From positions 829,507-893,506 of the forward strand of contig CP166960.1 in the NCBI GenBank assembly GCA_041447175.1: a stretch of 64,000 nucleotides of DNA, read 5' to 3'. Positions 31,157-39,704 of the stretch are shown here, one piece after another. Each line of letters opens with the position of its first letter. The first letter of the stretch is position 1. Source of the stretch: Candidatus Bathyarchaeia archaeon (lineage in GTDB: Archaea > Thermoproteota > Bathyarchaeia > Bathyarchaeales > Bathycorpusculaceae). Made by a program: the position numbers and the translations under genes. Below the pieces are notes generated by a model, which made no database searches, was not told the origin of the DNA, and saw only the letters and a program-made list of their open reading frames with translations.

Positions 31157-31253
31157 GTTAAGTGGCAGTATTTAATAAGAAAACAATGTGGATTTAGACG
31201 GTTAATAACCACATTTCCTTCTTTTCTAAAAATTTTTAAACAAGAAGTGTAAG

Positions 31254-31451
31254 CTACGGTGTCTCGCCGGCTTTCTTCAACAATTCATCAAGCAAAAGAA
31301 GGTCTTCTGTTACTTTCTGACGGTTAACTGTTTTTGCTCTTGCTCGATGTAAAATGACTTTGAAGCCTTCCAGTCGTTCTCCTGTTTCTAAGTATCGTTT
31401 GATGAGTTCTCTTTCATGTTCCGATAGTAGGCCGCTGTGCATAGCCATCAT
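31254..31451 (-). CDS. Short helical element protein, copy 1
   Basis: About 65 residues; ATG codons at three places near the N-terminus, likely MHSGLLSEHERELIKRYLET. Leucine-rich helices (TEDLLLLDELLKKAG). Near-duplicate of the gene at 34014-34202. Probably a small regulatory protein; family not recognised by name. Confidence 0.6.
   Translation of the reverse strand: MMAMHSGLLSEHERELIKRYLETGERLEGFKVILHRARAKTVNRQKVTEDLLLLDELLKKAGETP
31262..31446. repeat. 185-bp direct repeat, copy 1
   Basis: Aligns without gaps to 34022-34206 with 12 differences by hand count (about 93.5%). It comprises almost the whole short gene and ends at CATAGCC. Confidence 0.85.
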
Positions 31452-33704: not shown

Positions 33705-34013
33705 ATTTTTCAGCTCACGTTTCAGGTACGTTATTCAAACGCTAATACTATAACACAGATACAGTTATATAAACTTATACAATAAAGAAATGTGTTTGCG
33801 CCACCCACTGCATTGAACTATGGCCTCTCGAAAGCAACCCAAAATGTTTGAAACCTTGGATTTCTTATATTTAGGGAAATTTTCCCTAATTTCTTTCCCT
33901 TTTTCAGGGCGTCCAATGGGGTGATTCCTTTTTTCTTTTGCTTCCAGAGCCTCACCCTGACAGTTCAGTATATTTTAGGGACATTTAAGGACATTTTTAA
34001 ACAAAAGTACACG
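33705..34013. other. Intergenic region with minus-strand promoter
   Basis: AT-rich part 33740-33790 includes TTATATAAACTTATAC, likely promoter of the HTH gene. A tract of TTTCCC repeats (33877-33904) and TTTAGGGACATTTAAGGACATTTTT (33973-33998, direct repeat of GGACATTT) follow. No gene seen. Confidence 0.45.
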
Positions 34014-34202
34014 TCAGGGCTTCTCGCCGGCTTTCTTTAACAATTCATCAAGCAAAAGAAGGTCTTCTGTTACTTTCTGGAGGTTAACTGTTTTTGCTCT
34101 TGCTCGATGAAAAATGACTGTGAAACCTTCCAGCTGTTCTCCTGTTTCTAAGTATCGTTTGATACGTTCTCTTTCATGTTCCGATAGTATGCCGTTGTGC
34201 AT
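34014..34202 (-). CDS. Short helical element protein, copy 2
   Basis: 62 residues, MHNGILSEHERERIKRYLET and TEDLLLLDELLKKAGEKP. Differs from copy 1 at about eight residues, so both keep an open frame despite 12 base changes, suggesting selection. Confidence 0.6.
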   Translation of the reverse strand: MHNGILSEHERERIKRYLETGEQLEGFTVIFHRARAKTVNLQKVTEDLLLLDELLKKAGEKP

Positions 34203-34206
34203 AGCC
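34022..34206. repeat. 185-bp direct repeat, copy 2
   Basis: Same orientation as 31262-31446; the repeats bracket the RelE/HTH segment (2.6 kb). Confidence 0.85.
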
Positions 34207-35681: not shown

Positions 35682-35784
35682 CGTCAAAGAGGTCTTAGCG
35701 GAAGTTCGCCTCATCCTACAAGAGACACTGAAAATCTTAGACAACGAAAACGATGCATCCAAAAGGAACAAGCGATTCCAATGA
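35662..35784 (+). CDS. 40-residue helical element protein
   Basis: ATG about 9 nt after GAGGGA inside the preceding gene. VDVKEVLAEVRLILQETLKI is one long amphipathic helix, ends NKRFQ. Its TGA overlaps the next ATG (ATGA). Confidence 0.55.
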   Translation: MNQSAVDVKEVLAEVRLILQETLKILDNENDASKRNKRFQ

Positions 35785-35888
35785 CAATGCAACTAAACGT
35801 CGACTTTATCTGGTGTAGATACTGCCAAACCGTGAATTCAAAGTGGAGAGACCGCTGCCGAAAATGCGGCGAATTTCTGGGGGAATAA
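35781..35888 (+). CDS. 35-residue zinc-ribbon element protein
   Basis: IWCRYCQTVNSKWRDRCRKC is a complete CxxC...CxxC zinc ribbon. ATGA overlap upstream. The GGGGGA within its last codons can serve as ribosome site for the ATPase frame. Confidence 0.65.
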   Translation: MTMQLNVDFIWCRYCQTVNSKWRDRCRKCGEFLGE

Positions 35889-35892
35889 AAAC

Positions 35893-37824
35893 ATAATTCC
35901 AATCGGGGACCCCTTCAAACTAGACATTGACGTAACGCCTGACACTCCAATAGATGAGATCCCCGACAGCTACACAAAAGGCATAAAGCAAAAGCTAATC
36001 GATAAAGAGGCAGAACGAAAAACCCTAGAAATAGCCCTAGAAGAGCTAAGCGTAAACCCCGATGTTGAATCCGTTTTAATGAGTGAAATACACAAAACCG
36101 TCAGCCACTACGACAATCACATTATCCGCGTATCTTTGGCTGCAGGATTAAGCACATACAACAAGCCCCTAAACTTGGCTTTAAAAGCAGAGTCAGGCAG
36201 CGGCAAAACATACTGCACAATCGAGACAACCAGCTTTTTACCCGACGAAGACATAGAGACACTAAACTATGTTTCGCCCAAAGTTTTCATCCATGAGAAC
36301 GGCCAAGCCATGGTCACAATAGACGGCGAAGATGTACCGTTTGACAGCATACCTGAACCCGTAAAGCCAGACCCCGCCGATGAACCAGACAAAAGCATCT
36401 ACGCACAGCTCTGTAGAAACTACAATGAAGAAATGAAACGCTACCGGGAACTCAAACGCCAAGTATTCTATCAAATCGATCTGCGCAACAAAATACTGGT
36501 TTTCATGGAAGGAATAGACCAAAAACTCTTCACCATGCTCAAAACTACAATGAGCCGCGACAACGAAAACCATGGATACAATGACAGCAAATACGTGGAT
36601 GAAAAAGGAAGCGTGCACAAAACTCGACTTCTTGGTTCGCCAGTGATGATTTTCAACAGCGTAGACAGCGGAGAGTACAATAACGAGTTTGCGACCCGAT
36701 GCTTAACAGCAACTCCTAACACCAGCCAAAACAAGATCAAGGCAGCCATGGAAATCTCAGCTAAAAAAGCAGCCTACCCTTGCCTATTCAACAACAATCG
36801 ATTCCAGAAGCGACTACTAAAAGAGTATTTCCGCAAAATCCGAGAAACCATGAAAAAAGGAAACATAAGCGTAATCAGCCCATACGACGGGCTAAACACA
36901 ATCTTCAATGGCGACTCAACACGGTACATGAGAGACTTTAACAAATTCATAGAATTAATTGCCCCCTTCGCAATCCTTCACCTATACCAGCGCCCAGTCG
37001 TAATTTTAAACGATCAAAGATACCTGGTCCCGACAATTCGAGACGTTTTAGACGCCAAAGACACATTCGACAAAATCATAGAGACCACCCAAACAAACGC
37101 GGATAACCGATTAATCCAGTTCTATTGGGAAACAGTCTCAAAACATCAAGGAGACGGCACAACTTTAGAAGTAATAACCGACGAATATAACCAAGGTAAA
37201 AAACGGAAACTTACCAGCCGAACAATCTATGGATGGTTGGAGCAGCTAACAAAACTAGAGTGGGTAGACGCACGTAAAGGCGAACAACTTACAAGCAAGG
37301 GGTATGTTGACCAGCAAAGAATCACGTATCACCCGTTAAAAAACCGCGAAACTTCTTTGAATATGCTAATCAAAGAAGATTTAAAGCCCGTTTTACAAGA
37401 ACAGTTCAAAAAATGGCTGAAAACTTCTTTGGAAAAAGGCTGGCTCCGCACCCCTTTCATCATTCCTAGAATCGACGGTTCAGCTTTCGAAATAACATTA
37501 GAAGAACTTGAAAGAGTAATTTTAGACACCGAGGAAAAAAACGCAGTAATTTCCAAAGAAGATTTTACGCCCAAATCAAGCACCAATCAAGAAAATAAGG
37601 CTGAAAACCTTTTGATTCCTGAAAACAAAAAAATAGAAGAGTTTATGCTACCGCCAAATGAGCCACACCCATGCGAATTTTACAACTGCGGATTGGAAGC
37701 GACACACTACATCAAAACCAAAGACGCAGACGAAAGCTACTTCTGCAAAACACATTTCCGCGAAATGCGCAAAGAATGCGAATCCGTAAACATGAAACTG
37801 GAATCCCGACAGGAGAGTCAATAA
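35893..37824 (+). CDS. Element P-loop ATPase with winged helix and C-terminal zinc finger; non-AUG start proposed
   Basis: From ATG 36079 the protein has 581 residues. The same frame is open and protein-like back to 35893 (PIGDPFKLDIDV, then KEAERKTLEIALEELSVN), adding 62 residues with no ATG, GTG or TTG. ATA 35893 or ATT 35896 follow GGGGGA by 8 or 11 nt, whereas ATG 36079 has no ribosome site. Numbered from 36079: Walker A ESGSGKTY (38-45), possible Walker B ILVFMEG (about 133), a winged helix (about 375-420) with LTSRTIYGWLEQL, and C-terminal CEFYNCGLEATH...CKTHF. The layout suits a replication or packaging ATPase of the element; family name uncertain. Confidence 0.72.
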   Translation: MIPIGDPFKLDIDVTPDTPIDEIPDSYTKGIKQKLIDKEAERKTLEIALEELSVNPDVESVLMSEIHKTVSHYDNHIIRVSLAAGLSTYNKPLNLALKAESGSGKTYCTIETTSFLPDEDIETLNYVSPKVFIHENGQAMVTIDGEDVPFDSIPEPVKPDPADEPDKSIYAQLCRNYNEEMKRYRELKRQVFYQIDLRNKILVFMEGIDQKLFTMLKTTMSRDNENHGYNDSKYVDEKGSVHKTRLLGSPVMIFNSVDSGEYNNEFATRCLTATPNTSQNKIKAAMEISAKKAAYPCLFNNNRFQKRLLKEYFRKIRETMKKGNISVISPYDGLNTIFNGDSTRYMRDFNKFIELIAPFAILHLYQRPVVILNDQRYLVPTIRDVLDAKDTFDKIIETTQTNADNRLIQFYWETVSKHQGDGTTLEVITDEYNQGKKRKLTSRTIYGWLEQLTKLEWVDARKGEQLTSKGYVDQQRITYHPLKNRETSLNMLIKEDLKPVLQEQFKKWLKTSLEKGWLRTPFIIPRIDGSAFEITLEELERVILDTEEKNAVISKEDFTPKSSTNQENKAENLLIPENKKIEEFMLPPNEPHPCEFYNCGLEATHYIKTKDADESYFCKTHFREMRKECESVNMKLESRQESQ

Positions 37825-38099
37825 TGACCGAACAAAAAACCACCGAAGAACCAACATTAAACCAACAGAAAAAGAAGCACAGAACAAAGCTGTTCGCCCA
37901 TTTAGACCACGTAATACGCCTATCTGACGAAAAACTTAGCAGTAAAGGCAACAGCGACAAAGCAAAGCAAGGTTGGGCCCGAGTTATGACTACTGCAATA
38001 GCCACGTATGGAACCCTGCTCAAAGATACAGAGTTAGAAACAATAGAAGAGCGCTTAACCAAAATAGAGGCTGAACGCACATTGGAAAAATGGAAGTAA
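37824..38099 (+). CDS. Helical element protein after the ATPase
   Basis: 91 residues from ATG 37824, sharing its A with the ATPase stop (TAATG), with AGGAGAG upstream. Contains LFAHLDHVIRLSDEKL, TTAIATYGTLLKDTELETIE. Unknown. Confidence 0.65.
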   Translation: MTEQKTTEEPTLNQQKKKHRTKLFAHLDHVIRLSDEKLSSKGNSDKAKQGWARVMTTAIATYGTLLKDTELETIEERLTKIEAERTLEKWK

Positions 38100-38119
38100 C
38101 CAGAAAGGAGGTGTGAAAC

Positions 38120-38500
38120 ATCAAAAGTATAATCAGAAGAATTGAAAAAATTGAGCGCCAAACCACGGCCCCACGCTGGAAAGTAGCAATCCAAGATTGT
38201 ACAACCGACGGTCTCTTCCGTGGTGACTGCGGCGACGGCTTAACCCAAGAACAGTTTAGCAAATGGACAGAAAGCCAAGACAAAAACACTCAGATAATCA
38301 TCATTAAACTGTCTTGCACTTTGGATGCCTTAAATGTGGTTGTTGAGAACCATGCCGACAAAAACACTGAAGACCTGCTGAGAGAATACGATGAAATAAT
38401 CGCTCAGCAGGTGAACGAAGAGGTCAATAGACGGGCGGACACAATAATTAAGTTTAGCTGTGAAGAAAACAAAGAAACGGAGCAAACGCAGGAACCTTAA
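38120..38500 (+). CDS. Element protein with proposed ATC start
   Basis: The frame KSIIRRIEKIERQTTAPRWK onward runs 126 codons with normal composition, ends TQEP, and has no ATG, GTG or TTG before about residue 66. A perfect GGAGG (38107-38111) lies 8 nt before the ATC at 38120, and an in-frame TGA at 38114-38116 closes the frame immediately upstream. So the gene seems to start at ATC (or the nearby ATA/ATC). The product is mixed alpha/beta with a helix DLLREYDEIIAQQVNEE. No family. Confidence 0.6.
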   Translation: MKSIIRRIEKIERQTTAPRWKVAIQDCTTDGLFRGDCGDGLTQEQFSKWTESQDKNTQIIIIKLSCTLDALNVVVENHADKNTEDLLREYDEIIAQQVNEEVNRRADTIIKFSCEENKETEQTQEP

Positions 38501-38513
38501 TGCGTATCCATGC

Positions 38514-39704
38514 CTATTTCTTCTCTTCAAGTTTCTTCTCAAGTTCAATAACTCGTTTAAGCAAAACTTCAATGCCTTCTTTGGAGCTCTCTATTTTCTG
38601 CATTTTCTCTTTAAGCTCCACACCAGTTCTAACAAGCGATTCAATGACCTGGTCTTTCTCCGCTACCTTAGCCGATAATTCCTCAAGTTCTTCCTTTACT
38701 TTTTCGTCATATTCGGTTTGAGCAACGTCAGTTAACCGTAAGAACGCATAGACTTTTTTGGCGGCGTCAACAAAACTGTCCATCATCTGCTTGTAGCCGC
38801 CATACTCCATCTCTATACTGCTGGCGTGCCCCATCATTGCCTCTTTGGTTTTAGGATAAATACCAGCGGCCTTCAAAGAATCTTCAAAAGCGTCACGAAG
38901 ATTAGTTGGCTTAAACCCCTTTACTTCATGTAGTTTGGGGACGTTCTGAATGATGCAGCTTACAACTTGCGTAACTGCCTTGTTATTTAAGGGTCCCTCT
39001 CTGCCAAGAAGCAACGGACCCGCTTCTTCTCCCCTAATCTTCATGTATGCGTTTAATGCGCTGCAAACATCCGGCATAGACACGCCTCTGATGACTTCGC
39101 CTGTTTTTGAACGGCTGCGCTCAAAATACTGCCACGGCTCAGAAGGGTAATCGCCAACGTTTAGAGCTGCTATGTCAACGGGGACAAAGCCATTCTGGTA
39201 CATGATGGCGATGATGAATTTGTCTCTTGCACAATCCGCATGATCAAGTAACTCGCGGACTTCACTGTTTTCAGGGGAATATTTTCTGTGTCTTCTAGCC
39301 TTTGGGAGCTTAATTTCGTTCTTCAAGTCTAAGGCTAAACGTTTAGAGTTGTTGGCAAAGAACCCCTGTATTCTACCTATTACCCCTTGGGTGCTTCTAC
39401 CCGTGTAGCCTTTGGCTAAAAGGTGCTTGGCGTACAGTTTGACTTGGCGTTCATAGCGTTCCTCGTTTTCTGGGATGCCGCTGAACAAGTCAGATTTGCG
39501 GTTGCTGAAGACGGTGTCGGGGTCTTCGCCTAGAAATAGGAAGAACGCGGATAGTTGCCAGTAATAGTTTTCTTTGGTTTCTTCGCTTAACGCGGTTACT
39601 GCGCGTTTGATTGATTCATATTCTTGTATAGGTTTGCCGAAGGTTTGCTGGAATTGTTCTTTGTTGGTGGTGCGGCCGTTTTTCTGTTTTCGTTGCTTCA
39701 GCAT
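38514..39704 (-). CDS. Tyrosine recombinase (integrase) with C-terminal coiled coil
   Basis: 396 residues. An N-terminal SAM-like core-binding domain (about 30-135) precedes the catalytic domain. Visible catalytic residues: Arg in TNLRDAFEDSL (about 268), His in MMGHASS (about 288) and Tyr in EYGGYKQM (about 300). The usual first Arg after a GLR-like turn is missing: the site reads YQNGFVPVDIAAL. The last 70 residues form a coiled coil (EELSAKVAEKDQVIESLV). It faces the rightward operon and has TATTTATAG 35-45 nt upstream of its ATG. Confidence 0.85.
   Translation of the reverse strand: MLKQRKQKNGRTTNKEQFQQTFGKPIQEYESIKRAVTALSEETKENYYWQLSAFFLFLGEDPDTVFSNRKSDLFSGIPENEERYERQVKLYAKHLLAKGYTGRSTQGVIGRIQGFFANNSKRLALDLKNEIKLPKARRHRKYSPENSEVRELLDHADCARDKFIIAIMYQNGFVPVDIAALNVGDYPSEPWQYFERSRSKTGEVIRGVSMPDVCSALNAYMKIRGEEAGPLLLGREGPLNNKAVTQVVSCIIQNVPKLHEVKGFKPTNLRDAFEDSLKAAGIYPKTKEAMMGHASSIEMEYGGYKQMMDSFVDAAKKVYAFLRLTDVAQTEYDEKVKEELEELSAKVAEKDQVIESLVRTGVELKEKMQKIESSKEGIEVLLKRVIELEKKLEEKK

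Follow-up and report, generated by a model that had tools for sequence, protein, structure and literature searches.

A reading frame without a canonical start codon

The window analysed here is a stretch of 64,000 nucleotides from the genome of Candidatus Bathyarchaeia archaeon (contig CP166960.1, positions 829,507 to 893,506 of the forward strand), and it contains an integrated mobile element. Within this element, the gene referred to here as gene 2 is preceded by gene 1, which encodes 91 amino acids (37824-38099, + strand), and followed by a gene for a XerA-like tyrosine integrase on the opposite strand (38514-39704, - strand; NCBIfam NF040815 at 6e-18, below the cut-off of that model, and PHROG 1 integrase at 2.6e-11), with a gene for a P-loop protein located further upstream. 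The stop-to-stop frame of gene 2 covers positions 38117-38500 of the + strand (127 codons), and reading from an ATC at 38120-38122 gives a coding sequence of 126 amino acids plus stop (38120-38500), the same 126-codon frame that a sequence-only reading of this DNA had described. That reading had also noted the lack of any ATG, GTG or TTG before about codon 66; the absence was confirmed, although the earliest in-frame canonical codon is a TTG at 38321-38323, which is codon 68 counted from the ATC and is not preceded by a Shine-Dalgarno sequence. An in-frame TGA is present upstream at 38114-38116, but it is separated from the ATC by a single codon (AAC, 3 nt) and not by the 4 nt first reported. 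As this TGA closes the frame, initiation of gene 2 has to occur at or after position 38117.

The perfect GGAGG (38107-38111, + strand) claimed for this site is indeed spaced exactly 8 nt from the ATC, and the anti-Shine-Dalgarno match is longer than this core, extending to GGAGGTG (38107-38113). The 3' end of the 16S rRNA in the host genome is GGATCACCTCCT, with which GGAGGTG pairs fully, making seven pairs possible. Canonical starts led by GGAGG in the host genome have a spacing peak of 7-9 nt, and the 8 nt of the gene 2 ATC falls within it, while a chance estimate places GGAGG 6-10 nt upstream of only 0.38% of codons inside coding sequence. Gene 1 ends with a TAA 20 nt ahead of the ATC and, with its stop at 38099, cannot reach the frame of gene 2. 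In two relatives the stop of gene 1 overlaps the start of gene 2 by 4 nt (TTGA or GTGA), and in the window the strong Shine-Dalgarno sequence stands in place of this overlap. One gene 1 homologue, in genome G171 (L006, near position 1950, - strand), is broken in two where the frame changes within a run of GGGGGG, which may represent decay or a further slip site on a run of G.

Searches of the gene 2 protein against Pfam, PHROG and NCBIfam gave no match of note. Its AlphaFold model is weak (pLDDT 65), and Foldseek with this weak model returned no PDB match below an E-value of 0.1.

Conservation of the ATC and selection on the frame

A copy of gene 2 whose protein is 80% identical along its full length was found in a second genome (G006, contig JAOZHZ010000020.1), a Bathyarchaeota MAG that belongs to the same genus and to another species. 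Its frame opens at the equivalent place, behind the same in-frame TGA and with ATC as the second codon, and the DNA at the start (GGAGGTGTGAAGCATCAAAAGT) shares the Shine-Dalgarno sequence, the spacing and the ATC with the window, differing by one substitution in the spacer. This conservation supports the ATC as the start of gene 2, as the sequence-only reading had proposed, and AUC at 38120 is probably the real start. The same comparison bears on the concern that an ATG had been misread as ATC through a sequencing or assembly error. Such an error would take just a single-base change, but the ATC recurs in G006, an independent MAG from a different species with a contig name of the short-read MEGAHIT type, and with the Shine-Dalgarno sequence and spacing shared as well, the error explanation is refuted for practical purposes, with only a negligible chance left to it.

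The frame of gene 2 is open in both the window and G006 and is under purifying selection, with differences at the three codon positions of 20/9/28, dN of 0.109 and dS of 0.465. Divergence between the two copies is mosaic: codons 1-24 are identical and the remainder after codon 72 is about 92% identical, while in codons 25-72 (window 38192-38335 against locus L003 of G006) 44 of 144 bases differ, with dN/dS of about 0.12. Between flanks that are 92-100% identical, this segment stands out as an island that is mosaic or evolves fast, under strong codon constraint. The mosaic, together with the missing canonical start, could be taken to mean that the N-terminal half is decaying or untranslated, so that translation yields just the C-terminal part from TTG 38321, or no product at all from a dead gene. 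The purifying selection on the frame, which extends through codons 25-72, contradicts the decay that had been offered as an alternative, and no part of the protein is better conserved in the gene 2 family than the N-terminal half, which would be lost if TTG 38321 were used; this explanation is thus very improbable. Nor were the marks of a pseudogene or sequencing artefact found, as the frame is neither broken nor unconstrained and no start is restored in the close relative.

Among 257 genomes of the class, five further copies of gene 2 were identified, spread over four genomes from a different genus in the same family, which brings the homologues to five other genomes when G006 is included. 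These five distant copies start with TTG, GTG, ATG, GTG and TTG, at most 1-3 codons from the site of the ATC. The sequence-only reading had called for homologues to be checked for an ATG at this place, and the answer is divided: the distant ones carry ATG, GTG or TTG nearby, but the two closest members, the window and G006, both have ATC, which occurs at the gene 2 start in these two sequences of one genus only. The ATC is offset by one codon from where the nearest distant homologues (L005 and L006) start in the alignment, and its exact equivalence with their start is therefore not proven. Four scans of IMG/VR for relatives of the element found none, and none were found among phage records.

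This one-codon offset is relevant to the idea that initiation occurs at another non-canonical codon near the ATC, such as AAC 38117, AAA 38123, the following AGT, ATA 38129 or ATC 38132. AAC 38117 aligns exactly with the TTG and GTG starts of L005 and L006, and an ATA and a second ATC lie within 12 nt after ATC 38120. AAC, however, is spaced 5 nt from GGAGG, and ATA and ATC 38132 are spaced 17-20 nt from it, against the 7-9 nt peak of the genome, and AAC 38117 is AGC in G006. Initiation at one of these neighbouring codons is accordingly improbable.

Possible frameshifting at gene 2 and the P-loop gene

A further possibility is a programmed +1 frameshift, in which ribosomes would initiate at GTG 38113, in a different frame from gene 2, and shift into the gene 2 frame before the TGA at 38143. 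The GTG opens an ORF of 10 codons (38113-38145, + strand; MKHQKYNQKN and stop), G006 retains both the GTG and this ORF, and the sole substitution in the spacer, A38118G, is synonymous in the GTG frame (AAA to AAG). The GTG is nevertheless just 1 nt after GGAGG, which is too close for use, and there is no slippery run at the junction with gene 2; a well-initiated overlapping ORF with a slippery site, as expected of a programmed +1 frameshift gene, was thus not found. In addition, a chromosomal gene of the TIGR00375 family (see below) has, in genomes G001 and G005, a Shine-Dalgarno sequence leading to an ATC and no ATG, GTG or TTG in any frame between the two, and a +1 shift cannot explain these cases. 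Frameshifting into gene 2 is therefore unlikely, even though the neighbouring P-loop gene of the element does resemble a +1 shift case.

The P-loop protein has 581 amino acids when read from its first ATG (36079-37824, + strand), but its coding frame runs upstream to 35836, giving 81 codons of open frame ahead of ATG 36079, at least 59 of which are conserved. One homologue (L046) aligns with the 59 residues before the P-loop ATG and has a zinc ribbon fused in frame; in another (L069) the zinc ribbon is likewise joined to the P-loop protein in one frame, as an N-terminal domain with cysteine pairs. The window encodes the zinc ribbon in an ORF of its own, 35 amino acids long and in a different frame (35781-35888, + strand), which ends GGG GAA TAA. 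Behind it, the P-loop gene has an N-terminal coding extension that lacks a canonical start (35893-36078, + strand); the junction site is identical in G006. The P-loop gene (35836-37824) is a second gene of this element that lacks a canonical start codon. A +1 slip on GGGG 35880-35883 would join the zinc-ribbon ORF to the P-loop frame; alternatively, translation could begin at AUA 35893 or AUU 35896, after GGGGG 35879-35883. The only archaeal programmed frameshift reported, according to a review, is the -1 frameshift of fucA1 in Saccharolobus (PMC8211752), which is similar in having a coding frame without a start beside another ORF. The shift in fucA1 is -1, whereas the P-loop gene would need +1, and gene 2 differs from the fucA1 type in having a proper Shine-Dalgarno sequence. 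Elsewhere in the element, a direct repeat of 213 bp with 89% identity (31234-31446 and 33994-34206) reflects a small gene on the - strand, of 65 and 62 amino acids, that is duplicated.

Near-cognate starts in chromosomal genes of the host genus

The window and 40 stretches of 20 kb, together about 32% of the genome, were surveyed for frames whose coding sequence continues upstream beyond the first canonical start. Among the roughly 750 coding frames in this sample, a long coding-looking stretch before the first canonical start was rare, and the two largest such stretches in the first 391 frames were both located in this element. The statement that chromosomal starts within the window are ATG, GTG or TTG was not contradicted there, but it fails for the chromosome as a whole, in which genes with ACG and with ATT or ATC at the start were detected. 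The earlier implication of gene 2 being an isolated case was consequently wrong, since near-cognate starts occur in conserved chromosomal genes of the host genus.

The first of these encodes a FAD/NAD-binding subunit (NCBIfam NF004862; L088:18074-18934, G000:C1:2118074-2118934, - strand) and has an ACG start, always behind GGAGGCG, in each of the seven genus genomes as well as in G007 from a neighbouring genus. The NF004862 model has a methionine at the ACG codon, with its second position matching the residue after this codon, and five more distant genomes carry ATG, GTG or TTG at the same position. After the ACG, the seven genomes of the genus have no in-frame canonical codon until 18-84 codons downstream, and in G006 (L097) a TAA directly precedes the ACG. 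As the upstream gene ends before the ACG in G006 and G001, the conservation of this codon cannot be put down to an overlap constraint or a -1 shift, and a -1 frameshift from the upstream overlap at A AAA C was rejected on this ground. RNA editing of ACG to AUG was also considered; it would fit ACG but not AUC.

The second is the TIGR00375-family gene (L146:8558-9946, G000:C1:2458558-2459946, - strand), which has ATT at the start site in G000, G002 and G006 and ATC in G001, G003, G004, G005 and G007. In 20 of 22 other genomes the start is TTG or ATG; G069 (L171) has CTG at the start site, and in G072 (L178), which belongs to a different family, an ATT immediately follows a TAA. There is no canonical codon from the upstream stop to the N-terminal domain in G000, G001, G002 and G005, and in G003, G004, G006 and G007 an in-frame ATG lies 2-4 codons upstream of the ATT or ATC, abutting the Shine-Dalgarno sequence. 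AUU, AUC and ACG starts in chromosomal genes across the genus suggest a tolerance of start codons that annotation software ignores.

At sites in the genome sample that are led by a Shine-Dalgarno sequence and lack a canonical codon, near-cognates were found in 8 of 30, compared with about 11% expected (P 0.017), a modest excess in which one of the eight counted sites, the Alba gene in L148, proved to have a normal in-frame ATG and was rejected as an ACG start. An ATC candidate in L090 was not supported by its homologue. Four weaker candidates were observed: an uncharacterised gene (L087:14786-15205, + strand) in which an ACG aligns with the ATG of the G006 and G002 homologues (L116, L117), a VOC-glyoxalase gene with a CTG start (GGAGGTGAAAAA CTG; L137, frame 7566, - strand), a TIR-domain gene with a CTG directly preceded by a stop (L135, frame 6443, - strand) and an acylphosphatase gene with an ACC or GTT start (L140:17792, + strand).

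A possible mechanism of AUC initiation

If gene 2 is translated from the AUC, GGAGGUG would pair with CACCUCC at the 3' end of the 16S rRNA and position the AUC in the P site, with the usual spacing of 8 nt. Its first two bases could then pair with the ordinary initiator Met-tRNA (anticodon CAU), with a C-C mismatch tolerated at the third, in which case the gene 2 protein would begin with methionine and would probably be made at a low level; such a start might serve to keep gene 2 expression low, or to tune it, in relation to that of gene 1. The initiator tRNA of the host is normal, with a CAT anticodon and a standard anticodon stem. The pattern GGGCTNNNAACCC, searched for an initiator-like tRNA reading AUC, gave only one true initiator, again with CAT, and a match to GGGCTGATAACCC was rejected as it falls inside a protein gene, so that no tRNA reading AUC as a start was found by pattern search. 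Near-cognate initiation at AUC, AUU and ACG that is common to the element and to chromosomal genes of the host genus points to relaxed start selection in the host initiation machinery. Relaxed control of the aIF1 type is the natural suspect, because archaeal aIF1, that of Saccharolobus included, discriminates against non-canonical starts (PMC6237735, PMC8211752). A motif scan for the aIF1 gene in the sampled stretches, which together with the window cover about 32% of the genome, did not find it.

Discussion

Gene 2 shows four features of an infC-type near-cognate start: it has no canonical start from the upstream stop to the conserved N-terminus, a Shine-Dalgarno sequence at normal spacing, conservation of this sequence and of the start codon in a related species (G006), and purifying selection on the frame. 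We infer the use of AUC itself from these sequence comparisons, and we put a probability of about 0.74 on the reading in which gene 2 of the integrated mobile element is expressed, under selection and translated from AUC, as one example of near-cognate initiation across the lineage.

For a few bacterial genes, conservation of a near-cognate start between species is well documented. The infC gene, encoding IF3, starts with AUU in E. coli and with AUC in Streptomyces, and this is conserved between species (PMC5472188), which is the likeness to gene 2. The difference is that infC is a bacterial chromosomal gene autoregulated by IF3, whereas gene 2 is an archaeal element gene with no known feedback, and archaea use aIF1 in place of IF3. 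The sigR gene of Streptomyces has a GUC start that is repressed by IF3, and its near-cognate codon holds expression low within an operon (PMC5472188). Gene 2 would resemble it in combining a near-cognate start with low expression in an operon, but sigR is bacterial and experimentally shown, with another codon and another fidelity factor. For initiation led by a Shine-Dalgarno sequence in archaea, the aEF1A mRNA of P. abyssi has GGAGG, 8 nt and AUG (PMC6237735); the core and the spacing are alike in gene 2, with ATC here in place of AUG. The start codons named for archaea in a review are AUG, GUG and UUG only (PMC7531240), and no archaeal AUC, AUU or ACG start was found in searches of open-access papers.

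The broader interpretation, which we consider reasonably likely, is that a genus of Bathyarchaeia has relaxed start selection, with AUC, AUU, ACG and perhaps CUG and AUA conserved behind strong Shine-Dalgarno sequences in both chromosomal and element genes. The archaeal rule of AUG, GUG and UUG would then be broken at about 1% of genes in this lineage, which automatic annotation would truncate or miss, and gene callers limited to ATG, GTG and TTG would truncate conserved proteins in these genomes. The start codons follow a clade boundary: one genus and its neighbour have ACG or AUU/AUC, and most other Bathyarchaeia have AUG, GUG or UUG. This boundary makes relaxed archaeal start selection testable with ordinary reporters, and it sets up a comparison in which changes in aIF1, aIF1A, aIF2 or the 30S P site can be sought.
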